Assembly: GCA_030611265.1 (NCBI GenBank)
Contig: JAUWQD010000027.1
Coordinates: 1 to 34,785, forward strand
DNA from: Methanosarcinaceae archaeon
GTDB taxonomy: Archaea > Halobacteriota > Methanosarcinia > Methanosarcinales > Methanosarcinaceae
Length of the DNA: 34,785 nt
Direction: 5' to 3'
Below are positions 2,550 to 30,206 of the stretch, in pieces. The notes beneath the pieces are model-generated. The model worked only from the letters and a program-made list of their open reading frames with translations. It searched no databases and was not told where the DNA came from. The first letter of the stretch is position 1; every line of letters starts with the position of its first letter. Made by a program: the position numbers and the translations under genes.

Positions 2550-3266
2550 TTAGTAACTCCAATTTTCATGACTCAACATTGAACGATTCAGCTCTTCTTT
2601 ATAAGAATGCCATTGGGGAATGAATTTATCCATGCAGGCTACGAAACGGTCGTTGTGTTTGCGCTCTATTAGGTGTATCATTTCATGTACGATAATGTAT
2701 TCAAGACAATGTTCCGACTTTTTTACTAATTCAAGATTTAACCAAATACGACGTTTTTCGATAGTGCAGGTGCCCCATTTTGTTTTCATTTTCCTGATAC
2801 CCCAATCATTTACTTCTACCCCGATTTTATTTTGCCATTTGTTGATCAATGCCGGCACTTGATCTTTAAGTTGCTTACGATACCACTCTGTAAGCACTTT
2901 TTCTCGCTGCTTGCCAGTACTGCCAACTCTTACGTAAAGATCAATATAGGTCTTATTACGGATTTCCACTTTAGGAGCAGCGTTGTGATAAATGACATTC
3001 AATAGATAACGATTACCATTGTAATAATGGCTTTCACCTGATACAAATCTGCGTTGTGATTGACGCTCTTGAGCTTCAAATTTTAATTTCTGTTTTTTAA
3101 TCCATGCCATTTTTGAGATGGCAAAAAGACGAACTGCCTCATCATCTATTTTCAGAGGTGATGCAATTCGAACCCTACCTTTAGGAGGGTATACTCCGAG
3201 ATGAAGATTCTTAATATCCTTTCTTACTACATCTATTGAGATGTTGCCTACGGTAATTTTCTGCAT
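2550..3266 (-). CDS. YgjP-like zinc metallopeptidase of the type I R-M cassette
   Basis: The protein has the HExxH zinc motif (HEMIH near residue 195) followed by ERKHNDRF, whose His is the expected third ligand. An upstream WGTC segment is also characteristic of the YgjP/DUF45 (WLM/SprT-like) family. It is about 238 residues long, full length for the family. The ATG at 3266 begins one base after the hsdR stop. An in-frame GTG at 3278 would overlap hsdR by 11 bases. I prefer the ATG because family members usually begin shortly before the conserved VRKDIKNLHLGV-type segment. Genes of this family are often last in type I restriction operons. The substrate is not known. Confidence 0.88.
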   Translation of the reverse strand: MQKITVGNISIDVVRKDIKNLHLGVYPPKGRVRIASPLKIDDEAVRLFAISKMAWIKKQKLKFEAQERQSQRRFVSGESHYYNGNRYLLNVIYHNAAPKVEIRNKTYIDLYVRVGSTGKQREKVLTEWYRKQLKDQVPALINKWQNKIGVEVNDWGIRKMKTKWGTCTIEKRRIWLNLELVKKSEHCLEYIIVHEMIHLIERKHNDRFVACMDKFIPQWHSYKEELNRSMLSHENWSY

Positions 3267-3267
3267 A

Positions 3268-6200
3268 CTAATATTCACTCTGATTTTTCACTAATTCAAA
3301 AATGCGATCTACTTCTTCATCATCTTGAATGTGATTTCTTATCGCATACTTCACTTCACGTTCTTTTATTTTATTGCCTCGCCATCCATCTTTTTTAGTG
3401 TGACAAATTTCATAATCTAAATCTATCGTAAGTTTTTCATCATGGCTTAAATTGTCAAATAAGGCTCTTTTGGCATTTGAATTTAGGCTTTTTGGATAGG
3501 AAGAAGATATAGCTGGGTTTTTCAATTTTTTGCATAACTCCACAATTTTAGCTAAATATTCTTCATAACCTTTGGCTTCTGCTTTTCGTTCTTTAATTAA
3601 TTCATCCAGAAGAGTGGACATATTCTCGTAATATTTCGGATTAGTAGGGGTTTCATCGATTATCAACCTACGCATATTGTTTTCAATCGTTTCTGCTACA
3701 GCTTCTTTGTTTCGGGCTATGCCTTCCGGCAATGCATTTACAACATCTTCCCCTCGTTCTACAATCAACTCGATCAATGTCATGTCATCAAAAGCGGAAA
3801 TCTTTTCGCTTTCTTCGGCACTGATATAGGTGTCTATCAAATGACGCATTGCAGGCTCGTATGCTTTTAGGTCAATATAATCACCGCTTGCCAGTTTTAC
3901 CTCAGCCCGAACATTTTCATAATGCTTTACATCTTTTATTATCTGTTCAATTTCTTCTGGCGTATAACCTGCACCCCTCATTTCATTTGCGATGTCGGCA
4001 TAAGCCCTTATCAGTGCTACTGTATGCTTATATAATGCAATACGCTTTTGTTCAGTTTCTTTTAAATCATCCTTGTTTTCAGGATTGCCACAAAAATAGC
4101 GTGTATAAGCCAACGTATCTTTTGGTGGTGCTACCGGCTCGCACAGTGCTTTGATCTTTTCCAGTGCATTGTCTAATCGTTCTTTGCCTTTTGCCAATCT
4201 GTCACTTAACAAGCCTTCTACATCTTCTTTTTCATATGCATCGAATGCTTCAGAAGTATAATCATCAATTGATTTTTCAAGGCTTTTGAAAAGGTCTTTG
4301 TAATCGATGACATAGCCATATTCCTTATCATCGCCATCTAAACGGTTTATCCGACAAATTGCCTGAAACAGTCCGTGATCTTGCATACTTTTGTCGATAT
4401 AGAGGTAGGTAGCAGAAGGAGCGTCAAAACCAGTAAGAAGTTTATCCACTACAATAAGCAATTTCATCTGGGCAGGTTCTTCAACGAATTTCTTTTTTAC
4501 TTCATCTTCAAATGTTTCCGGATCTTTATCATCCAGCATTTTGATGTAAACTTCGTATTTTTTCAATTTATCGGTAGGTGAGTCTTCACCTGTGCTTTCG
4601 CCTTTTATATCGTATACTGTGGGTGTGTATGAGGTGACGATTGCACATTTTTTTAAGCCGGAATTTAGAAACAGTTCATAATATTTACATGCCTCATAGA
4701 TACTGCCTGACACCAACATTGCATTGCCCTCTCCGCTTTGCAATCGGTCTTTTGTTGCCATATCCAGTTGAATATCGGCTACTATTTTTTCCAATCTGGA
4801 TTGTGAACTGAGGACACGCTTCATTGTCCCCCATTTCTTTTTTAGTCCGATTATGGCATAATCAGTCAATCCCCGTGTTTTTGCATCAAACCACTGGTCG
4901 ATCTTTGTCTGGGAAGTGATATTCTGGTCAATATTTCGTGCTTCGTATCGCAAGTCAAGTATAACTTTGTCCTTTACCGCTTCATCGAACTTGTAGGTGT
5001 GGATGTATTTGCCAAATATTTCAATGCTTTTCTTTTTATCTTTTTTGAGCAGGGGCGTGCCTGTGAAACCTACAAATATGGCATTAGGCAAAATAAGGTT
5101 CATGGCTTCGTGGAGCTTTCCCGACTGGGTACGGTGGCACTCATCCACGAATACGTATATGTCGCCTTTTGCTTTGAATCTTTTTGGCAGGCTTCTTTTT
5201 ATGTCTTCAATATATCCATCGTAATCGCTTTCTTCTTTATTGCCAAACTTGTGGATTAACGAGCATAGCAACCAAGGTGTTGTTGAATTTACTTTTTCGA
5301 TAAGATCTTTCCCGCTTCTGGTGCGGATGATCTCTTCTGTGACACCTGAAAAGGTTTTTTCTATTTGCTTATCCAGCTCATCACGATCAGTTATGATGAG
5401 CACTCGGGAATCGTTGATATTCTCGCGTATCCATTTGGCAAGCCAGACCATGATCAGACTTTTACCACTACCCTGAGCATGCCAGATAATGCCGCCTTCG
5501 CGCTTTTGCAGGCTTTTCTGTGATGCTTTCACTGCACAATACTGATTGTGCCGGCAAATCTTTTTGGTGCCCCGGTCGTACACGATAAAATCATGCAGCA
5601 GTTCCAAAAACCGCTCCTTTTGACATAGCTGGATAATATGCCTATCAAGCAGGTTTTCGATATCGCTGTCTTCTTTCCACTTGAGGTAGTATTTTTCCTT
5701 TGTATCGATAACGCCATAACGGACACCTTCGGTATCGTTACCTGCCATTACCAGTTGAATGGTGGCAAAAAAGGAACGTATGAACGTTTGTTTTTGGTTG
5801 TCGAGGTTCTGGCGGATCCCTTCGGAAACTGATACAGTGCTGCGTTTAAGTTCCAATACACCAAGAGCGATGCCGTTGACATATAGCACCACATCAGGAC
5901 GTTTGTTATTTTCACCTTCTACTGTGACCTCTTCGGCTATGGCGAAATCATTTTCAAGAGGATTTTCCCAGTCTATCAACCATATCGTCTGGGTATTTTC
6001 CCCCACATATTCCTTTATGTGTACGCCATAACGCAACAGGGAATACACTTCTTTGTTGATGTGGTACAGGTCTTTACTCTGATTGGTAGCTGCCTTGGTA
6101 AGCTCGTAAATGGCTTTGCCAATAAGAGTTTGGCTATAACCTTTTTTACTCAGGTATTTGCGCAAAATAGCCTCTTCTATATTGCTATTGTTCTCACGCT

Positions 6201-6297
6201 CTTCCCAGTTACCGAGATAATCATAATCCAGTTGTTTTTGGAATAGTTCTACCACACGGTTCTGTGTACGGCGTTCTCTTTGTCCTACTGTTGTCAT
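3268..6297 (-). CDS. hsdR: Type I restriction endonuclease subunit R
   Basis: This is the motor and nuclease subunit that translocates and cuts unmethylated DNA. The 1009 residues are full length. The N-terminal PD-(D/E)xK nuclease shows D135 in RPDVVLY and E149-L-K151 in VLELKRS. The superfamily 2 helicase follows, with Walker A AQGSGKS (274-280), DECH (385-388), FTGTP (411-415), and a motif VI region LFQAICRINR. The C-terminus is the expected helical region for contact with the methylase. The ATG at 6297 is preceded by GAGGGA and lies 3 bases after the stop of the winged-helix gene, so it is probably co-transcribed. No frameshift or missing motif is seen, so it is probably active. Confidence 0.97.
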   Translation of the reverse strand: MTTVGQRERRTQNRVVELFQKQLDYDYLGNWEERENNSNIEEAILRKYLSKKGYSQTLIGKAIYELTKAATNQSKDLYHINKEVYSLLRYGVHIKEYVGENTQTIWLIDWENPLENDFAIAEEVTVEGENNKRPDVVLYVNGIALGVLELKRSTVSVSEGIRQNLDNQKQTFIRSFFATIQLVMAGNDTEGVRYGVIDTKEKYYLKWKEDSDIENLLDRHIIQLCQKERFLELLHDFIVYDRGTKKICRHNQYCAVKASQKSLQKREGGIIWHAQGSGKSLIMVWLAKWIRENINDSRVLIITDRDELDKQIEKTFSGVTEEIIRTRSGKDLIEKVNSTTPWLLCSLIHKFGNKEESDYDGYIEDIKRSLPKRFKAKGDIYVFVDECHRTQSGKLHEAMNLILPNAIFVGFTGTPLLKKDKKKSIEIFGKYIHTYKFDEAVKDKVILDLRYEARNIDQNITSQTKIDQWFDAKTRGLTDYAIIGLKKKWGTMKRVLSSQSRLEKIVADIQLDMATKDRLQSGEGNAMLVSGSIYEACKYYELFLNSGLKKCAIVTSYTPTVYDIKGESTGEDSPTDKLKKYEVYIKMLDDKDPETFEDEVKKKFVEEPAQMKLLIVVDKLLTGFDAPSATYLYIDKSMQDHGLFQAICRINRLDGDDKEYGYVIDYKDLFKSLEKSIDDYTSEAFDAYEKEDVEGLLSDRLAKGKERLDNALEKIKALCEPVAPPKDTLAYTRYFCGNPENKDDLKETEQKRIALYKHTVALIRAYADIANEMRGAGYTPEEIEQIIKDVKHYENVRAEVKLASGDYIDLKAYEPAMRHLIDTYISAEESEKISAFDDMTLIELIVERGEDVVNALPEGIARNKEAVAETIENNMRRLIIDETPTNPKYYENMSTLLDELIKERKAEAKGYEEYLAKIVELCKKLKNPAISSSYPKSLNSNAKRALFDNLSHDEKLTIDLDYEICHTKKDGWRGNKIKEREVKYAIRNHIQDDEEVDRIFELVKNQSEY

Positions 6298-6300
6298 AAA

Positions 6301-6624
6301 TTATCCCTCTATAATTTTCCAGTGCCCACCCTTAGTCGAACCAATCCTTTCAAGTTTACCTTCGTCTTGTAACTTTTTGATGTTTCGTTCGATTGTACGT
6401 GTAGTTACGCCAATTATTTCTGCAAGTTCTGGAATAGTAATATTGCTATTTGCTTTAATTATCGTTAACAGTTTCACCGACATTTCTACCGACATTTCTA
6501 CCGACATTTCATCTGGAACATCATAGATATTTAAGTTAAACTTAAGGATAAAATCAAAAAAATCATACATATATTTAGGCATTGCCAAACCAGTAATTCC
6601 AGTGGTGTCCATAAGTACACTCAT
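6301..6624 (-). CDS. Small winged-helix protein between hsdS and hsdR
   Basis: The product has 107 residues. The C-terminal ~60 form a helix-turn-helix/winged-helix domain (ITIPELAEIIGVTTRTIERN, then KKLQDEGKLERIGS). This resembles the HTH that ends AlbA/RecG-like (Schlafen-type) ATPase proteins. The N-terminal ~35 residues are unrecognised. The ATG at 6624 is chosen because a strong GGAGG lies 7 bases upstream; an in-frame GTG at 6648 would place that site inside the gene. The start overlaps the stop of the preceding 31-codon ORF as ATGA. Three in-frame copies of a 12-base repeat (EMSV) lie in the linker. It could regulate the cassette, or be a relic of a larger regulatory protein. Confidence 0.7.
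   Translation of the reverse strand: MSVLMDTTGITGLAMPKYMYDFFDFILKFNLNIYDVPDEMSVEMSVEMSVKLLTIIKANSNITIPELAEIIGVTTRTIERNIKKLQDEGKLERIGSTKGGHWKIIEG
6476..6511 (-). repeat. Three tandem 12-bp repeats inside the winged-helix gene
   Basis: Plus-strand unit ACCGACATTTCT is present three times, the last with one base changed. It encodes EMSV-EMSV-EMSV in the linker before the HTH domain. The unit is a multiple of three, so copy-number change would keep the frame. Confidence 0.9.
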
Positions 6625-6716
6625 GTTTTGTCCTCCTCTACCAACCACGTATTTCCAGTGAGGAGTTCTTGCATCATTCCCTGCTTTATCATGTAACCTT
6701 TTGCCAATTTGTTCAT
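6621..6716 (-). pseudogene. Relic of an hsdS C-terminal tail (31 codons)
   Basis: The 31-codon ORF starts MNKLAKGYMIKQGMMQELL. Its core IKQGMMQELLTGNTWLV matches the C-terminal tail of the intact HsdS next door (IKQGMMQELLTGKTRLL). The codons differ at many silent positions, so it is not a fresh duplication. Its ATG overlaps the DUF1016 stop (ATGA) and its TGA overlaps the next gene's ATG (ATGA), so ribosomes could pass through by coupling. It most likely marks the 3' end of an older hsdS gene into or beside which the DUF1016 gene was placed. It could also be a retained coupling peptide. Confidence 0.75.
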
Positions 6717-7738
6717 TGAATTAATTTTTGTTGAGCGATTTCAACTGCTTTGTGCAATTTTTCTTGCAATAGTATTTTCGGTGGTAGTACAGTAAGGTAT
6801 TCTGCCACTCGTATGTTGCTTTTGTGTAATTGCATAAGTTCAATATGTTCTTCATTTTTGCCCGCACACAGGATTAAGCCAATGGGTGTATTTTCACCTT
6901 CTACTTGCTCATATTTTTCTAAATAATGCAAATACAACTCCATTTGCCCTTTAAAGCCTGCTTCAAAATCGCCAATTTTTAAATCGATCGCTACCAAACA
7001 CTTTAATCGGCGGTGATAAAATAGCAGGTCAATGTAATAATCCAGGTTATCTATCGTAATGCGTTTTTGACGAGCTAAAAAGGCAAAGTCGCTGCCCAAT
7101 TCCGTGATAAAGCGCTGTAACTCTACAATAATGGAAGTTTCCAAATCTTTTTCAGAGTAACTATCTTTTAAGCCCAAAAAATCAAGAAAATAGGGATCTC
7201 TGAATACCAGGTCAGGATTGAGTTTTTGCTCATTTTTCAACAATTCCAAATCATTTTGGATGGTTTTTTCAGGATTTTTACTGAGGGCAGTTCGCTCGTA
7301 AAGCATGGATTGGATGCGTTCCCTGAATGCACGAAAACTCCATTTTTCCAATTTACACATTTCAATGTAAAATTCACGTTTCAATGAGTCGTCCATAAAC
7401 ATAACCAGACGCAAATGTGACCAGCTCAATTCTCTACACAGTGTGTATACAATTTGCTCATCTGGAAATGCTTGCGCAAATTGCATGCACTGCCTGAGAT
7501 GTTTTTCACCCCAGCCATTGCCATACTCTTGTGTTAAATGTCGTGACAGTGTAGGGATAATCTGTTTTCCGTATTCTGCCCTTTGATTTTGCAGTACATC
7601 ATCATTAATCCTTTTGCCAATTTGCCAATAAAGCACACTCATTGTTGTATTTACAGATACAGCAATTTGTTGTTTACCCTGCTCAATAAGTTGCTTTACT
7701 GCTAAAAGCAACTGGGTATCTTCTGTTACTTTATTCAT
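6713..7738 (-). CDS. DUF1016 (YhcG-like) PD-(D/E)xK nuclease
   Basis: The 341 residues show the full DUF1016 layout. An N-terminal helical DNA-binding half (YWQIGKRI, GWGEKHLRQCMQFAQAFP, LSWSHLR) leads to a C-terminal nuclease domain. There, D237 in YIDLLFYHRRLKC and D252-L-K254 form a PD-(D/E)xK-type active site, followed by QMELYLHYLEKYE. The ATG overlaps the hsdS stop by four bases (ATGA), showing coupled translation. Genes of this family are common extras in type I restriction loci. Proposed roles include recombination or accessory restriction; the role here is inferred from position only. Confidence 0.93.
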   Translation of the reverse strand: MNKVTEDTQLLLAVKQLIEQGKQQIAVSVNTTMSVLYWQIGKRINDDVLQNQRAEYGKQIIPTLSRHLTQEYGNGWGEKHLRQCMQFAQAFPDEQIVYTLCRELSWSHLRLVMFMDDSLKREFYIEMCKLEKWSFRAFRERIQSMLYERTALSKNPEKTIQNDLELLKNEQKLNPDLVFRDPYFLDFLGLKDSYSEKDLETSIIVELQRFITELGSDFAFLARQKRITIDNLDYYIDLLFYHRRLKCLVAIDLKIGDFEAGFKGQMELYLHYLEKYEQVEGENTPIGLILCAGKNEEHIELMQLHKSNIRVAEYLTVLPPKILLQEKLHKAVEIAQQKLIQ

Positions 7739-8943
7739 AACAACCTCGTCTTGCCTGTAAGTAATTCCTGCATCATGCCCTGCTTGATGGTTTTATATTT
7801 AGCTTGTTTTTGCTCCAATGCTTCTATCTCGGTGTCCATGTCGCTGAGTATTTTGGCGATGGCTTGTTGTTCTTTTTTCTTTGAAGGAATGGATATTTCA
7901 AAAGAATGAACATCATTTCTATTTAGTGTCGGCACACCTGAACCAGTGCCAAATCTTTCAAGTTTTGTTTTGAGGTATAGATAAAAAATAAACTTTGGGT
8001 CATTGCCTTTAAAATCAGTCACCCATAATGAAGTATTATGTGGCCAATAATCCTCCTCAACAAATGTAACTTTTCCAATCGTTCCAGACCTACCTGTCAC
8101 TACACCGGGTGCTTTTAGCTTATATGCACAATGATAATTAACGATTCCATTTGAATAAACAACAGGATATTCACCTTTTTTAAGTTCATTATTTGGTAAA
8201 TCAAAACCTCTTTGAAGTGGAGCAATATTTTCAATTTTCTTCATAATCCACTCCCCACCAAACCCCGGCAGGCGTTTCTCACCTGTAAGTAGTTGCTGCA
8301 TGGCACCTTGCTTTATATTGCGCTTTTTGGTGATGAGTTGCCCCAATGCGGTGATGAGTGCATCCACATCGGTTAGGGCGGAGGCGATGGCTTGTTGTTC
8401 AGGGAGGGGAGGAATCGGAAGCTGGAGCTTACCAATATTTGTTTTACTAATGCCACTTACTTTGGTTCCCACCGAATAGAAATAGAATTGGCTTTTGATA
8501 TCTCGGCTTTGAAAACAATATCTTTTATACCCATTGTCCAAAACCCCCTCTTTGCTTTTCGCAACGATTGTGTGTAATCCTGAAATGTAAGTAATATCTT
8601 CATTATTGACTACTACAATGTGCTTACTTGTTCCCTCATCATCTTCGGATGCATCAACAAAGACAACATCACCATTATGCAATCGTGATTTTGGTGAAAT
8701 GCGCTTCAATGGAATATTGAGCTTAGGAATATCGGGATACTCCGCTCGAACATCAATAAACGATTTGGTTGATTTATGGATGTCACCGTAGTGCAAATAG
8801 CAATGGCCATCGGAGGACAACTGATCTCTTGAGGCAGAATAACCACCACCAAACGTGAAGATGTCTCCAAGAGTCTCAACCGCCCAATCCTCTGGAATTA
8901 CCCCCACCTCCGTTTGCTTATATCCTGCCTTCACTTCACTCAT
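7735..8943 (-). CDS. hsdS: Type I restriction-modification specificity subunit S
   Basis: HsdS reads the bipartite target for both methylation and restriction. The 402 residues contain two target recognition domains. Each is followed by a conserved coiled-coil spacer: PLPEQQAIASALTDVDALI ... KQGAMQQLLTGEKRL in the middle, and KEQQAIAKILSDMDTEIEAL ... KQGMMQELLTGKTRL at the end. The opening VGVIPEDWAVETLGDI is typical of TRD1. The ATG at 8943 has a GGGAGG site 6 bases upstream, and the gene lies 16 bases after the Bro-N gene. Both halves are intact, so a functional enzyme is expected. The recognition sequence cannot be read from the protein. Confidence 0.96.
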   Translation of the reverse strand: MSEVKAGYKQTEVGVIPEDWAVETLGDIFTFGGGYSASRDQLSSDGHCYLHYGDIHKSTKSFIDVRAEYPDIPKLNIPLKRISPKSRLHNGDVVFVDASEDDEGTSKHIVVVNNEDITYISGLHTIVAKSKEGVLDNGYKRYCFQSRDIKSQFYFYSVGTKVSGISKTNIGKLQLPIPPLPEQQAIASALTDVDALITALGQLITKKRNIKQGAMQQLLTGEKRLPGFGGEWIMKKIENIAPLQRGFDLPNNELKKGEYPVVYSNGIVNYHCAYKLKAPGVVTGRSGTIGKVTFVEEDYWPHNTSLWVTDFKGNDPKFIFYLYLKTKLERFGTGSGVPTLNRNDVHSFEISIPSKKKEQQAIAKILSDMDTEIEALEQKQAKYKTIKQGMMQELLTGKTRLL

Positions 8944-8959
8944 TACAACCTCCCATCAT

Positions 8960-9877
8960 TCATCCAACATTAATTTTTTTGGAGATTTTTTTAAGCTTTT
9001 TTAACTGGTCTCGTTCAACATCGTTGATGTTTTCGCCTAGCGTGCGTAAATCTTTACGCAATGTCTTTGCATTATCACTGGTTATCACTTTTTTGCCGGT
9101 TTTAGCTTCAATATCATTGCGCGCATTACCAGCCACGCTTCCGCCTTCACGGGCCACGATTTTGTTCTCCTCCAAATTATGTGGCTCTCGTTTTTCAGAA
9201 ATTTCCGTTGTCGCGGTTTCTGCCAGCATGTTCAAAACCAATTCCAAGTTGGTCATATTATCACGCAAATTTTCTTTCTTAAGATTTTTATGAGTCTTGT
9301 ATTCTTTGGTCGCCATCCCAGTCCACGCCTTGGTAATCTCATCCGTCAAAATGGCAAACTCCAATCCTTCTTTAACTCCTCGCTTTTCCCATTCATCAGT
9401 CAAAGCTTTGCGAATTTCAATACTTTTGAGGCGCTGATTGATCCATTCCGAGCTATAACCTTTTTGCAGATAAGTTTTAAGTGCACGATCAATCGCCAAT
9501 TCCGGGTCGGCAGTTTCTTCCAGTCTTTCATACCCGACACGAGCAAGCCACAGTTTGAACGGCTCAGCGTTTGGGGAGGGAATTGACTGGATAAGACGGA
9601 GCATGGTTTCAGTATCTGCAACATCAGTGAGACGCATTTTACCGTCTTTAGCAATCATTTTCAAACCGTTACATTTTGTAACGCTTTCATTTGCCCCCTC
9701 ATCAATCAAACGTTTTTTGAGTCCCCGCCAATAAACTTGAGGATTATTGCTATTCGTTAGAACCGCTACTACATCAACAACAGCAAAATACCAAAGTTCC
9801 TTTTCCTCATCCCAATGGCGACGTATCTGCGTGCCTTCAAAAATTGCGATGGCTTCATTTTTTGCTTGTTTTTTCAT
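8960..9877 (-). CDS. Bro-N domain protein, DinD/antirepressor-like
   Basis: The 305-residue protein begins with a Bro-N domain (IFEGTQIRRHWDEEKELWYF, VVDVVAVLTNS, then LIQSIPSPNAEPFKLWLARVGYER). Its C-terminal half resembles DinD-like proteins (NLELVLNMLAETATTEI, GGSVAGNARNDIE). Bro-N proteins bind DNA in phages and large viruses, and DinD inhibits RecA filaments in Escherichia coli. Within restriction operons the function is unproven. The gene sits between hsdM (46 bases upstream) and hsdS (16 bases downstream), so it is part of the operon. A role controlling the cassette or sensing DNA damage is inference. Length and motifs look complete. Confidence 0.88.
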   Translation of the reverse strand: MKKQAKNEAIAIFEGTQIRRHWDEEKELWYFAVVDVVAVLTNSNNPQVYWRGLKKRLIDEGANESVTKCNGLKMIAKDGKMRLTDVADTETMLRLIQSIPSPNAEPFKLWLARVGYERLEETADPELAIDRALKTYLQKGYSSEWINQRLKSIEIRKALTDEWEKRGVKEGLEFAILTDEITKAWTGMATKEYKTHKNLKKENLRDNMTNLELVLNMLAETATTEISEKREPHNLEENKIVAREGGSVAGNARNDIEAKTGKKVITSDNAKTLRKDLRTLGENINDVERDQLKKLKKISKKINVG

Positions 9878-9923
9878 AATTGCCCCTTGTTAATTGAATG
9901 AAAATCCCCATTATCAATAGCAT

Positions 9924-12320
9924 TCAAGTCCATTCAAACCCCATTTTATCCAGATGCCCGTTCACCTTCATCTCCAGTTCATCCACTTGTGCATTCAAGT
10001 CAGGCATTGGCAAAGCATAGCGTTCCGCCAGTTCCTTAATGCGCCTCGTAAGACGCTGGGAAATACGCTCCAACTCAGACGTAACATCCTGACTAATGGC
10101 AGCCATCCATTTATCGTCCACAACAAGTATTTTTATCTCGTCCTCATTAAGCGTTTTGTACTTTCCAATTACCAGTTTATCCAGTGATTTTTGGGCATCT
10201 TTGATCTTCTTCCTGGCACTTGCTTCCTCTTTGATCAATTTCAAATATGCCTCTAACACTTCCCTCTCCTCAACAGAATCGGCATCGTTCTTGATCACCT
10301 TGATACACTTTTGCACATTGCTTTTACTGATCTTGCCCTTGTCCGTTTTCACTTCCTCAAGCAAACCATCTTCACCGCTATGCTCCTCGCCCATCTCTTC
10401 AATCCGGCGGCTAACATCATCACGTTCAACCTCCAATTGCTCTATCTCTTTTTTCTCGGCTGTAAAATAACGATCAATAACATATTGCTTGGGCAACAGT
10501 TCGCTATCCCATTCATCCTTCTTTCCATTGACCTGGGATAATTCAGCCTTCCAGCCATCAGCAGATATCAGGTAAACATCATCCTGCATAGTATCCATCC
10601 AGTAGGTCATAAGATGCTGATAAATATCATACTGGTCAATCAGGTCTTTATCTGCAAATGATGTGAGTATATCCTCAGACAACTTGAAAATCACATCTTT
10701 TGGCTTAGCATCCTTATCCAGACTTTTCAGCACAGGTATCCACTTAGCTTTCCACAAATCAAAAGCCGAATCAATACTTTCAGTATATCCCGTAAATTCA
10801 GGATGTGAAAAGATCGTATGTTTGATCTCATCCTGTGCAATTTTCAACTCAACATACCCTTCCCGTGAATCTGTGCTAAACAATGCATCCTTAAGCGTTG
10901 GATACACATCCCAGTAATTCCCCAAATCCTCAATATCCTGCTTTGGAATACCACCCCTCAAATGAGCCTCAATATCCTGAATATCCTCAGCTTCCTGACT
11001 ATCGATATAACGGGGAATGTTCAGGTTATACTCGTTCCTCTCAATCTCCTCCACAGCCACCATACGGGAATACTTGGGAACTTCAGTTTGCTTATTAAAT
11101 ACATCCACAATACTATGAATATCCTGCTCCCTCAAGCGGTTTTTATTGCCATCCTTCACAAAACCCTTGCTGGCATCCACCATAAAGATACCTTTTCGAC
11201 CATCAGCATACTCTTTATCGATAACAATGATACAAGCAGGAATGCCAGTACCATAAAAAAGATTTGCAGGCAACCCGATAATACCCTTTATAACACCTCT
11301 TCGGATCAGGTTCGTGCGTATATCCGCCTCGGCATTTCCACGAAACAGCACGCCATGAGGCAAAATAATCGCACCCTTGCCTTTGTTTTTAAGTGAACGG
11401 ATAAGATGCAACATAAAAGCATAATCGCCATTCTTGGCTGGCGGTATGCCAGCTTTGAAACGTTCATATAAATCGTTTTTAGGGTCAAAACCACTGCCCC
11501 AAGCCTTTGTAGAAAAGGGAGGATTGGCAACTGCAAAATCAAAGGTCTTTAGAGTTCCGTCCGGATTCTTGAAATGAGGTGTTGAAAGAGTATTATCATT
11601 CCATATATCAGCCGTCGGATTATTATGCAAGATCATATTCATTTTAGCCAAAGCAGTCGTGGCATTATCCATCTCCTGTCCATAAATGGTAACACCTTGA
11701 TGCGTTTCATCAGCAGCTTTTAGCAATAATGACCCACTACCACAGGTAGGATCATAAATAGTCTGAGTCTGGCTTTTGGCTTGATCAATGCCAATTACCC
11801 TTGCCATTATTCGCGACACCTCAGCCGGCGTATAAAATTGTCCTTTGCTCTTACCTGATTCAGTCGCAAAATGACGCATAAGATATTCATAGGCATCGCC
11901 TAAAATATCGTCACCTTCGGCTTTGTTCTTACTAAAATCAAGGCTTTCATTTTGAAATATGCCCACGAGATTGGAAAGTCGATCAACCATCTCCTTTCCT
12001 TTGCCAAGCTTGTCTGAGTCATCGAAATCAGCTACATCGATTACACCCTTCAAGTCGTTAGCTTTTGCCAGTTCTGCTATGATTGTATTGATACCCTCGC
12101 CAATACCTTTTTTACCTTTCAGCGAAACCATATCCTGAAAACTTCCACCTTCAGGAACTTCAATTAAGGCATCCTTTTTGCCGGCATATTTATCCGATAC
12201 ATATTTTACAAACAATAATACTAATACATAATCTTTGTATTGGGAGGCATCCATTCCGCCCCTCAACTCGTCACAACTTTTCCAGAGAGAGCTGTATAAT
12301 TCACTTTTTTTAATTGCCAT
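9924..12320 (-). CDS. hsdM: Type I restriction-modification methylase subunit M
   Basis: This is an N6-adenine methyltransferase that modifies the HsdS-selected target. The N-terminal HsdM helical domain (1-140) is followed by GQFYTP (160-165), the SAM-binding motif DPTCGSGS (190-197), and the catalytic NPPF (266-269). At 798 residues it belongs to the long HsdM type. The last ~300 residues are charged and partly coiled coil (for example EKKEIEQLEVERDDVSRRIE) and contact the other subunits. The ATG at 12320 has an AAGGAA site overlapping the 4-base target duplication of the MITE-like element. This is the first gene of the operon, so cassette expression must start within or beyond that element. 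Confidence 0.96.
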   Translation of the reverse strand: MAIKKSELYSSLWKSCDELRGGMDASQYKDYVLVLLFVKYVSDKYAGKKDALIEVPEGGSFQDMVSLKGKKGIGEGINTIIAELAKANDLKGVIDVADFDDSDKLGKGKEMVDRLSNLVGIFQNESLDFSKNKAEGDDILGDAYEYLMRHFATESGKSKGQFYTPAEVSRIMARVIGIDQAKSQTQTIYDPTCGSGSLLLKAADETHQGVTIYGQEMDNATTALAKMNMILHNNPTADIWNDNTLSTPHFKNPDGTLKTFDFAVANPPFSTKAWGSGFDPKNDLYERFKAGIPPAKNGDYAFMLHLIRSLKNKGKGAIILPHGVLFRGNAEADIRTNLIRRGVIKGIIGLPANLFYGTGIPACIIVIDKEYADGRKGIFMVDASKGFVKDGNKNRLREQDIHSIVDVFNKQTEVPKYSRMVAVEEIERNEYNLNIPRYIDSQEAEDIQDIEAHLRGGIPKQDIEDLGNYWDVYPTLKDALFSTDSREGYVELKIAQDEIKHTIFSHPEFTGYTESIDSAFDLWKAKWIPVLKSLDKDAKPKDVIFKLSEDILTSFADKDLIDQYDIYQHLMTYWMDTMQDDVYLISADGWKAELSQVNGKKDEWDSELLPKQYVIDRYFTAEKKEIEQLEVERDDVSRRIEEMGEEHSGEDGLLEEVKTDKGKISKSNVQKCIKVIKNDADSVEEREVLEAYLKLIKEEASARKKIKDAQKSLDKLVIGKYKTLNEDEIKILVVDDKWMAAISQDVTSELERISQRLTRRIKELAERYALPMPDLNAQVDELEMKVNGHLDKMGFEWT

Positions 12321-27255: not shown

Positions 27256-27296
27256 CATCTCTGACTTTTGTATAGAGTGGTTTGGAAAATGTTATT

Positions 27297-28049
27297 ATGG
27301 AACTTATTACAATCGCGGTAATGGTATTCTTTGTTGCAGCGATCTTCTCAATGCTGGGACTTGGCGGCGGTATTGTATATGTGCCGATGTTCTATTGGCT
27401 TGGCATAGATATGCTGATCGCGATCCCAACAGCCCTTTTGCTAAATGCTGTGACCTCAAGTTCAGCAGCAATTACATATCTAAATAAAGGAATGGTTGAT
27501 CTGCACACTGCAGCGCCATTTATTATTGCATCCACAATTGGCGCGCCTGTTGGTGCGTATTTTACAAAATTTACTTCGGTGGAGACTCTCCTTTGGGCTT
27601 TTAGTGTTGTACTTGTGCTTGCAGGTGCACGAGTAATGCTTTCCAAAACTCACGAAAGTAACAATGGAATTTCAAAACTGAGTGCAAAAAAGCGCACTGT
27701 GATCGAAGTATGTCTTGGATTTGTAATCGGAATCGCAGTCGGACTGCTTGGCATCGGCGGAGGCACATTCATCGTACCTATGCTGATCGTACTTGGATTT
27801 GAGATTAAACGTGCATCAGCGACATCAGGATTCATTGTGATATTCTCATCAGTCTCCGGTTTTTTAGGACATTTGGGAACAGGACATCTGGATCTGGAAT
27901 TAATGATATATACCGCCATAGCAGCGTTTTTTGGAGCACAAGTTGGCTCGCATCTGATGTATAGCAAGATGAGATCAAAAACCATCAAACAGATGTTTGG
28001 TGTTGTATTGTGGATAATGGCGATCAAGATTGTAAACGGACTGCTGTGA
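27297..28049 (+). CDS. TauE/SafE family membrane transporter
   Basis: The 250-residue integral membrane protein has the two TauE/SafE repeats. Each is marked by a glycine-rich helix start: SMLGLGGGIVYVPMFYWLG near the N-terminus and VGLLGIGGGTFIVPMLIVLG in the middle. About eight hydrophobic segments are expected. Family members are proposed to export sulfite, sulfoacetate or other organosulfur anions; the substrate is unknown. An in-frame TTG at 27282 is the alternative start. It runs in line with the RCK gene, 41 bases downstream. Confidence 0.88.
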   Translation: MELITIAVMVFFVAAIFSMLGLGGGIVYVPMFYWLGIDMLIAIPTALLLNAVTSSSAAITYLNKGMVDLHTAAPFIIASTIGAPVGAYFTKFTSVETLLWAFSVVLVLAGARVMLSKTHESNNGISKLSAKKRTVIEVCLGFVIGIAVGLLGIGGGTFIVPMLIVLGFEIKRASATSGFIVIFSSVSGFLGHLGTGHLDLELMIYTAIAAFFGAQVGSHLMYSKMRSKTIKQMFGVVLWIMAIKIVNGLL

Positions 28050-28108
28050 TGTTAAGTTAAAGATTGGTGATTTTCTGGTTTATGCCGCACAATCACACAT
28101 GAAGAAAC

Positions 28109-29329
28109 TTACATAAGTTCAAATTCTGCTCGTTTAATTTTTTCTTTGAATATGTGTTCTATGCCACCACTTTTGCCATCTGTTTCGCCACCTATTTCAA
28201 AATTTTTGAATATTCTGGCAAACCACCTATCAATATCATCACCCGATATTCTTACAATAAGCTTATCGTCATTAGCAAGTAACCGTATCAATAATTTATC
28301 AGATTCCTTCCCAAAACCATTTGCAGAAATCATTATTCCTAATCGGATATTCCCCCGAAGTTTTCCAGAAAAATCACGAATTAGATCATTTCCTATAGCT
28401 TTTGCATAGTTTTTACATTCCACTTTGATATATTTTCCCCAACTACTAAGATCATGTGCGCTATTTATCAATGTTAAATCAATTTGTTCAAAACCTAACT
28501 TAATATCATATTCACCATTTTTATCTCTTAATATTTCAAAATCATCCATTAATTCAAACATCTTTTCAGTGAATTGCTCTAATAATTTACCTTTTTTATT
28601 TGGATCATTTTCATTTTTTGTGTTGTACCACATTTCCAGTAATTTCCCATATGCAGGAATATCTATATTTGTCAGTACCTTAATAGGTTTCGAATAGAGA
28701 GCGTAGAATTTACCACCACTCCAAAAATTGCTTTCGCTGATAAAAAGTGGACTGTTTCTATCTTTAAAATATTGTTTATAATTTTTCCCGATATAGCTTG
28801 ATGAAGCTCCTTTTATTTGTTTACTCATTTTGGATGCAGACATATCTAATGGGCAAATCGCGACCAATTCTACAGAATGGGACATGAAATTTATATATCT
28901 GATTTCGATTGGATAATCATGTTTTTCATTGTATGACTTTACAGCAGATTCTATTCCCTCTTTTAATATATCAATAACGAACTTGTTGCCAACTGATTTA
29001 TTCAAAATATCTTTACTGTATTTGATGTCTGTCCTCATGTAATAAGGAACATAATTCATAGCTGACTTATCATCCCAATTAACAAGTGTAAAAACATCAT
29101 CTAAGTAATCTATTCTATATTGTGGATATTTGTCTTTAATTACATTGTACAGATTTAATTTAACAGTATTCAAAACTTTAAGTGGTGATAATGTCGGCCC
29201 TGATTGTACGTTAAAATATATACCATCAAAACTTGCAGAAATATGATGCTCAACTAAAAAGATGCCATCCCCTTCAATAGCAGTGCAAATTGCATCTAAT
29301 TTATCACGAATATCTTCACCAAACTTCAT
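28109..29329 (-). CDS. Degenerate Y1 (IS200-type) transposase domain fused to a Mrr-like nuclease
   Basis: Counting from the ATG at 29329, residues 1-90 are unrecognised. Residues 94-214 follow the order of an IS200 TnpA/Y1 domain: IKYSKDIL (as TKYRRPVL), a long helix, IRYINFMSHSVELVAICP, SASKMSKQIKGASSS, then FWSGGKFY. The HUH site reads H151-S-V, so the second catalytic His is lost, and no clear Tyr-containing YxxxQ helix follows. Residues 240-370 form a Mrr-like PD-(D/E)xK domain with D284 (EQIDLTL) and E304-C-K306 (VECKNY). The frame extends without a stop to a TTG at 29512; the true start is uncertain. This looks like a domesticated transposase fold guiding a nuclease. The function is inferred. 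Confidence 0.75.
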   Translation of the reverse strand: MKFGEDIRDKLDAICTAIEGDGIFLVEHHISASFDGIYFNVQSGPTLSPLKVLNTVKLNLYNVIKDKYPQYRIDYLDDVFTLVNWDDKSAMNYVPYYMRTDIKYSKDILNKSVGNKFVIDILKEGIESAVKSYNEKHDYPIEIRYINFMSHSVELVAICPLDMSASKMSKQIKGASSSYIGKNYKQYFKDRNSPLFISESNFWSGGKFYALYSKPIKVLTNIDIPAYGKLLEMWYNTKNENDPNKKGKLLEQFTEKMFELMDDFEILRDKNGEYDIKLGFEQIDLTLINSAHDLSSWGKYIKVECKNYAKAIGNDLIRDFSGKLRGNIRLGIMISANGFGKESDKLLIRLLANDDKLIVRISGDDIDRWFARIFKNFEIGGETDGKSGGIEHIFKEKIKRAEFELM

Positions 29330-29472
29330 TTTGATATTTTGCCATTTCACAAGATATCTAAATGGATAATAGGCCGAAGTATTTCCTTTTTTAATTGTGT
29401 TCGTGAGTTTACCCCCCTTTATTTTTAAGCTATGTTTATGTGACTCTGACTCATAAATCGTTAACAATGAGA

Positions 29473-29500
29473 TTATGTGCCTCGTGTTCAGCACATAATG
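29473..29500 (-). repeat. 9-bp inverted repeat upstream of the fusion gene
   Basis: ATTATGTGC and GCACATAAT form a perfect 9-bp stem with a 10-base loop. It lies about 145-170 bases upstream of the preferred start codon of the Y1-nuclease fusion. It would fall inside the coding frame if the 29512 start were used. Confidence 0.7.
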
Positions 29501-29537
29501 CATTTGCAGCAAACCAAGACGTGCCTAATCTTTGACA

Positions 29538-30206
29538 TCAAATCGATAATTTCGTCTGCTTGGTCTTTGGAACCAAACCGCTGATGTCAACAACATCCTT
29601 AAGCATCTCAAGCAACATCTCGTTGGCCAATGTTACAACATGTTCATCATTACCGGTGGCCTCATACGCAATATCAGATAAGGGCACATCGATCTTTGAG
29701 ATGTCTGCACGAAATTCCTTGAGATTCTTATCCTTGGATTCACGCACAATACAATCAGGCATTTCCAGATACTTCGTGATATGCTTTTGGTTGAGTCCCA
29801 CACGATTCAACTCACAATTAAAAACAGGTCTCTTAAAAAGTGCAGACATTGTAAAAACCCCAACAGGCATACGAATATCAAGATCAAGATCCCTTAGGTG
29901 AATGGCAATCAGTGAATATATATCCTCGAATAACTCTTCATTGTCCATCTGTGAATAAACCTTTGACGGCGGTATCTCCACCTCATTGAGTCTATCAAGA
30001 TCACGAAGAGCGCGAAGATATCCGGTCAATACAAGCCGATGCTCATTGAATCCTTTACCCCTCAACTCGCGGGTAATACCACTAATTGACAGTTGCTTGT
30101 TATCCAATATTTCATGTATTTTTTCGTAGAGATTACCAGACATATTACCATTACCTGTATCATCATTGGTAACAAACTTGGATAAATCTATTGGTTGTAT
30201 TCGCAA
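29538..30206 (-). CDS. Winged-helix-like regulator, unrecognised family
   Basis: The 222-residue protein has an N-terminal segment that looks like a winged helix (YEKIHEILDNKQLSISGITR then HRLVLTGYLRALRDLDRLNE). Its mostly helical C-terminal part carries SALFKRPVFNCELNRVGLNQ. No membrane or catalytic motif is visible. The listed start is a TTG without a good ribosome binding site. The ATG at 30143, after a GGTAAT run, is a real alternative. It is divergent from the pdaD-dys operon and lies upstream of the nuclease fusion on the same strand. Confidence 0.65.
   Translation of the reverse strand: MRIQPIDLSKFVTNDDTGNGNMSGNLYEKIHEILDNKQLSISGITRELRGKGFNEHRLVLTGYLRALRDLDRLNEVEIPPSKVYSQMDNEELFEDIYSLIAIHLRDLDLDIRMPVGVFTMSALFKRPVFNCELNRVGLNQKHITKYLEMPDCIVRESKDKNLKEFRADISKIDVPLSDIAYEATGNDEHVVTLANEMLLEMLKDVVDISGLVPKTKQTKLSI

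Follow-up and report, generated by a model that had tools for sequence, protein, structure and literature searches.

A possible domesticated transposase fold fused to an Mrr-like nuclease in a Methanosarcinaceae archaeon

Introduction

Many defence nucleases pair a common effector with different triggers. A gene from a Methanosarcinaceae archaeon raises the question of whether a transposase fold that has lost its catalytic residues could serve as one such trigger. The gene lies on a contig of 34,785 nucleotides (JAUWQD010000027.1 of assembly GCA_030611265.1), which, over its full length, is referred to below as the window. An earlier note, made from the DNA letters alone, had described the product as an inactivated IS200 TnpA-type (Y1) fold joined to an Mrr-like nuclease, and had raised the idea of a nuclease directed to hairpins. 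Here we ask where the coding region begins, what each part of the protein is likely to be, whether the fusion occurs elsewhere and what it might do.

Results

An intact reading frame that probably begins further upstream

The open reading frame originally described was recovered with its translation, and all four peptide stretches quoted from it, including IKYSKDIL and FWSGGKFY, were found. The gene occurs once in the genome. Its coding region is as follows:

28109 to 29329, minus strand: gene as first read; 406 amino acids (P0001), intact, 0 internal stops
29330 to 29503, minus strand: stretch by which the coding region probably extends at its 5' end, encoding YYPFRYLVKW (profile match, alignment A5, codon use)

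The extent first given to the gene holds in that the frame is intact, but its 5' end is probably set too far downstream. The frame stays open up to 29512, which gives a form of 467 amino acids (P0002, numbered as P0001 + 61), and in-frame start codons are present upstream of the ATG first chosen, at 29350 (GTG), 29467 (TTG) and 29503 (ATG). The stretch YYPFRYLVKW, encoded upstream of 29329, lines up with TnpA strand beta1 and was predicted to form a strand (model residues 16-23). Because the frame is open to 29512 and this stretch matches beta1, the protein probably starts upstream of 29329; with the ATG first chosen, strand beta1 of the first Y1-like copy described below would be lost. Codon use in 29330-29503 was best in the gene's own frame (-0.085, the remaining five frames reaching -0.57 at most), a preference that is weak over the last 66 bases.

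A Y1-like domain lacking its catalytic residues

The middle of the protein had been likened to IS200 TnpA, and several lines of evidence support that assignment:

28688 to 29056, minus strand: Y1-like copy 2 (Pfam, local profile, hhalign, alignment A7, Foldseek)

Pfam Y1_Tnp matched P0001 residues 123-190 (E 1.2e-5 to 1.3e-5; 25.8 bits against a cut-off of 23), the match spanning profile positions 25-90 of 121 only. An NCBIfam IS200 model matched at 9.6e-7, under that model's own cut-off, and PHROGs were concordant with the Y1 assignment. A local profile built from 31 TnpAs of the host's own family and order scored 26.7 bits on this region, a value reached by none of 5000 shuffles, and hhalign against TnpA gave a probability of 90% (E 1.4e-6). 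When the structural model was compared with solved structures by Foldseek, the matches took in nearly all solved IS200-type TnpAs at probability 1.00 (among them 2ec2, 2xm3, 2f4f, 2a6m); TnpA rows stood in the alignment behind that model and favoured such matches, which are therefore support, not independent proof. The domain is deeply diverged, sharing about 12-23% identity with the family's own TnpAs in alignment A7; the closest TnpA, a family copy (L130), is 39% identical over 85 amino acids.

Both catalytic histidines of the HUH motif have been replaced. In alignment A7, where both columns are nearly invariant among the 24 TnpAs, the HUH position is occupied by S152-V153-E154 (28868-28876); the motif had previously been read as H-S-V, and on either reading both catalytic histidines are lost. 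Other landmarks are retained, namely the K of KYR, the K of KG and the W of FWS, together with KGASS and FWSGGKFY. The absence of a catalytic tyrosine helix, also proposed from the letters, was confirmed: where the alphaD/Tyr segment would be, the nuclease's lead-in helix is found, with a Trp in the Tyr column. Indeed, what follows FWSGGKFY aligns with this helix in the nuclease relatives (in L003, KRYHLQRLWGNVKNE). Tyr227 was considered as a displaced catalytic tyrosine and rejected, since it sits in this lead-in helix common to the nuclease relatives.

A probable second copy in the first third

The first third of the protein, which had been left unassigned, resembles a second and weaker Y1 copy:

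29063 to 29374, minus strand: Y1-like copy 1, degenerate (TnpA profile, controls, hhalign, alignment A5, model)

The TnpA profile gave a weak match to P0002 residues 70-139. With the upstream codons included, copy 1 scored 8.3 bits, a score reached by 3 of 5000 shuffles (a chance of about 5e-4); in a control with natural proteins, 6 of 8108 windows scored as high, three of the six coming from one real Y1 (RAYT-like) protein. By hhalign, copy 1 matched TnpA with an E-value of 0.0027 and a probability of just 11%. In alignment A5, which copy 1 entered as one sequence, the TnpAs aligned over its whole length with their elements in register. Here FDGIYFNV falls under the HUH strand, so that HUH has become G-I-Y (29216-29224), and TLSPLKVLNTVKLNLYNVIKDKYPQ falls under the helix that follows it. 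The Tyr helix is absent from copy 1 ahead of the start of copy 2.

Structure prediction gave a similar picture. When AlphaFold was supplied with TnpA rows for copy 2 only, so that copy 1 had no alignment to guide it, copy 1 was modelled as beta-alpha-beta-beta-alpha-beta with its elements where expected, an order repeated in copy 2, with pLDDT of 63-80 over most of copy 1. Without any TnpA rows, the N-terminal half was mostly below pLDDT 50. An alignment that mixed TnpA and nuclease rows (A4) misaligned both and was left out of the structure predictions. The statistics for copy 1 are modest, and we infer its Y1 fold from these results combined; that it is a second Y1 copy seems to us probable. 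TnpA functions as a dimer (IS608, ISDra2). Because the model shows beta-alpha-beta-beta-alpha twice, the tandem copies may form a dead TnpA 'dimer' within a single chain.

The main alternative for this half of the protein is that copy 2 is the sole Y1 relic, that the first 90-110 or so residues form a ferredoxin-like (ACT-like) domain of other descent and that the N-terminal half responds to a small molecule or a protein rather than to DNA. By E-value, the top Foldseek match was 1u8s (3.2e-4), a protein with tandem ACT domains, and not TnpA, and the low hhalign probability for copy 1 points the same way, as does the fact that beta-alpha-beta-beta-alpha-beta is a very common fold. However, TnpA was better in Foldseek probability (1.00 versus 0.98) and in target-normalised TM-score (up to 0.65 versus 0.28), and the end-to-end alignment of copy 1 with TnpA, elements in register, also argues against an unrelated domain. 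We therefore regard the ACT-like alternative as rather unlikely.

An intact nuclease module shared with many relatives

The C-terminal third carries a nuclease domain whose active site appears complete:

28112 to 28654, minus strand: PD-(D/E)xK nuclease, Mrr_cat-like, C-terminal (conservation, pLDDT, Mrr_cat match)
28577 to 28579, minus strand: nuclease residue E251
28478 to 28480, minus strand: nuclease residue D284
28418 to 28420, minus strand: nuclease residue E304
28412 to 28414, minus strand: nuclease residue K306

The site D284/E304/K306 had been called intact beforehand, with the correct numbering; these three residues, and E251 as well, are invariant in a curated set of 35 aligned sequences. 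Across a larger set, D284, E304, C305, K306 and N307 are invariant in 51 of 51 sequences. Pfam Mrr_cat matched this protein under the cut-off (E 0.0022), and 45 of the 51 relatives match it. AlphaFold modelled the domain with pLDDT of 92-96 over most of its length, and Foldseek matches to this model included RPB5, whose N-terminal domain shares the PD-(D/E)xK nuclease fold, and the restriction enzyme PspGI. Solved structures searched with a profile from the nuclease alignment yielded nothing relevant, and a viral fold library gave no meaningful match.

Among the relatives, the module is C-terminal in 48 of 49, behind 8-669 amino acids of other sequence, and a Response_reg (receiver) domain is present in 20 of the 51 scanned sequences. 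This constant position, together with the varied front parts and the recurrent receivers, suggests that the nuclease is a widespread effector module with exchangeable triggers or sensors. The receiver fusions (L028-L037, L039, L052-L055, L059, L061-L063, L069 and others) have the layout of a response regulator with a nuclease output. A clostridial group of about 540 amino acids (L031, L038, L040-L042, L056, L060), with the nuclease again C-terminal, shares a conserved N-terminal region without an assigned family. The nearest nuclease relatives, L003 (in G070) and L004 (in G185), come from another class of the same phylum and have N-terminal regions of 600 and 455 amino acids, likewise without an assigned family.

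A single known instance of the fusion

The Y1-like fold and the nuclease do lie in one reading frame, as first proposed. Among the 51 scanned sequences, however, a Y1 domain is found in this protein only, the partner being something else in the other 50. Homologs sharing the fusion were sought, as the earlier note had advised, and none turned up as far as we searched, an outcome which that note had named as refuting its proposal: not in the protein's own genome, its class (238 genomes) or the class to which the nearest nuclease relatives belong; not among some 500 genomes from the phylum, sampled as sets of 295 and 393; not in plasmids or phages (tblastn) or viral contigs; and not in the genome contigs of 84,980 species, a scan by two exact peptide patterns which, for that reason, diverged fusions could escape. 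These searches returned the nuclease part alone or ordinary TnpA (L014, L130), never both. In the open-licence literature searched, no report of the fusion was found. A survey that covered the Y1 proteins of 2355 genomes assigns to Archaea only the core type (subclass 1.1), without additional domains, and in the passages considered mentions no nuclease fusion (PMC6006769). The parts, and the plan of sensor plus nuclease, are known; the sensor is new, and the architecture is an orphan.

Such a solitary case could also be an accident, in which a decaying IS200 tnpA ran into a nuclease gene and the Y1 part has no selected function. Both this genome and its family are rich in IS200-type genes and fragments, and motif loss is frequent in decaying Y1 domains. 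Against this, no stop interrupts the frame of 406-467 amino acids, its codon use is coding-like, and the divergence of the Y1 part from TnpA is so deep that the frame must have far outlived its origin. Moreover, two Y1-like copies are less easily explained by one accident. We consider a chance fusion improbable.

An accessory gene in a variable slot

The gene is carried by a segment that a sister genome lacks:

28056 to 29521, no strand assigned: insert that sister genome G437 lacks, having about 40 bp of other sequence instead
29472 to 29499, no strand assigned: 9-bp inverted repeat, ATTATGTGC-N10-GCACATAAT, within the insert, 27 bp from its edge and upstream of the gene

In G437, position 28055 is joined to 29522 across those 40 bp, and the flanks match (L109/L117) at 87-91%. 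The slot (28050-29537 in the window; L108-L111) has a TauE/SafE-type transporter gene (27282-28049) on one side and a conserved gene (29538-30206) on the other. In other genomes it is occupied by the C-terminal part of a type I HsdR (G433), a DUF4277 transposase (G435) or short HTH-type ORFs (G438). The insert is lower in G+C, and its codon use is less host-like (0.02-0.05 versus 0.11-0.19). It is an accessory gene whose acquisition is recent at the genus scale, and the slot it occupies accepts defence and mobile genes. The conserved gene on the far side, on the minus strand, encodes a protein of 222 amino acids found in 57 of the 61 Methanosarcinaceae genomes searched; it has no significant Pfam or NCBIfam family.

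It is tempting to regard the repeat at 29472-29499 as a target or an operator of the protein. Allowing 2 mismatches, it is single in the genome; at 3, one further, weak site appears. For this flanking repeat, then, the recurrent genomic hairpins raised previously were not found. Terminator-like sites numbered 2 against 0.6 expected by chance, that is, near chance. Of the insert's two ends, the upstream one has the inverted repeat and the downstream one has none, and they fold no better than shuffles.

Discussion

The results above are consistent with a single-gene nuclease, probably of defence, in which a dead, paired Y1 half binds nucleic acid and an Mrr/PD-(D/E)xK half cuts; we put the probability of this reading at about one half. 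The N-terminal half would be a catalytically dead pair of IS200 TnpA-type Y1 domains in one chain, retained to recognise nucleic acid, and the loss of HUH in both copies with the fold markers kept fits retention for binding. By analogy with TnpA, the target would most likely be single-stranded or hairpin DNA, and the intact nuclease half would cut at or near the recognised structure. The known fusion is a single instance, which limits this reading.

Hairpin targeting is plausible on the same analogy. In its most specific form, a Y1-type pseudo-dimer would recognise DNA hairpins and direct the fused nuclease to cut them, as a structure-directed immune nuclease; the hairpins might come, for example, from replicating or recombining mobile DNA or from the folded ends of IS200-type elements. 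We hold this specific form to be doubtful. Also improbable is a modification-dependent type IV restriction enzyme whose Y1-derived part would recognise modified bases in duplex DNA rather than a hairpin: the nuclease is of the Mrr_cat type and Mrr-like enzymes are commonly methyl-directed, but no SRA, PUA or EVE domain was matched in Pfam or NCBIfam and no Y1 protein is known to read base modifications.

How does the binding-and-cutting reading compare with known systems? Copy 2 shares its fold, its element order and the KG-SS and FW-S motifs with IS200/IS605 TnpA (PF01797, Y1_Tnp; 2ec2, 2xm3, 2a6m). Unlike those transposases, the fusion protein lacks HUH and the Tyr helix, has two copies per chain and an attached nuclease, and has no evident flanking IS ends. 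TnpA-REP (RAYT) proteins, which bind REP hairpins, are Y1 proteins that have been domesticated (PMC8266576, PMC6006769). Like them, this is a Y1 protein that is not its own transposon and to which a C-terminal part has been added; in contrast, TnpA-REP proteins have retained both HUH and Tyr and lie next to recurrent REP hairpins, whereas the fusion protein has neither motif.

The C-terminal half has its own parallels. Mrr_cat (PF04471) modules with receiver or other N-terminal domains have the same nuclease, with E251, D284, E304 and K306, in the same position; the difference lies in the Y1-like partner, seen in 0 of the 50 others scanned. In Shedu (SduA), a single-gene anti-phage system, an N-terminal clamp binds DNA ends and varies among systems (PMC12904381). 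The fusion protein would resemble it in coupling a variable N-terminal sensor of a DNA feature to a C-terminal PD-(D/E)XK nuclease (PMC12904381), but its nuclease matches Mrr_cat, and P0002 had no SduA match in PADLOC, where 10 of the 51 nuclease relatives match SduA weakly.

A domesticated transposase fold may thus steer a nuclease. If so, a TnpA fold stripped of HUH and Tyr would be a new kind of trigger, in which DNA shape is read by a former transposase, and an abundant selfish protein would have been captured into the host's nuclease repertoire, perhaps for use against its own relatives. Since there is one instance only, the wider biological importance of such a capture is unproven.

A role in defence, suggested at the outset, is supported only indirectly, by the variable slot and by the nuclease relatives. 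Seven of those scanned match the PADLOC defence candidate PDC-M36A, and a relative on a Kozakia plasmid lies between toxin-antitoxin genes and SIR2/ATPase genes. On the other side, PADLOC gave no match for this protein or its neighbour, and its immediate neighbours include no defence gene; the closest such genes are those of a type I restriction-modification operon whose end is about 16 kb off. That operon (2550-12320, minus strand) encodes HsdR (3268-6297), an HTH protein (6301-6648), HsdS (7735-8943) and HsdM (9924-12320), as well as a YhcG/DUF1016 PD-(D/E)xK nuclease (6713-7738) and a Bro-N protein (8960-9877).
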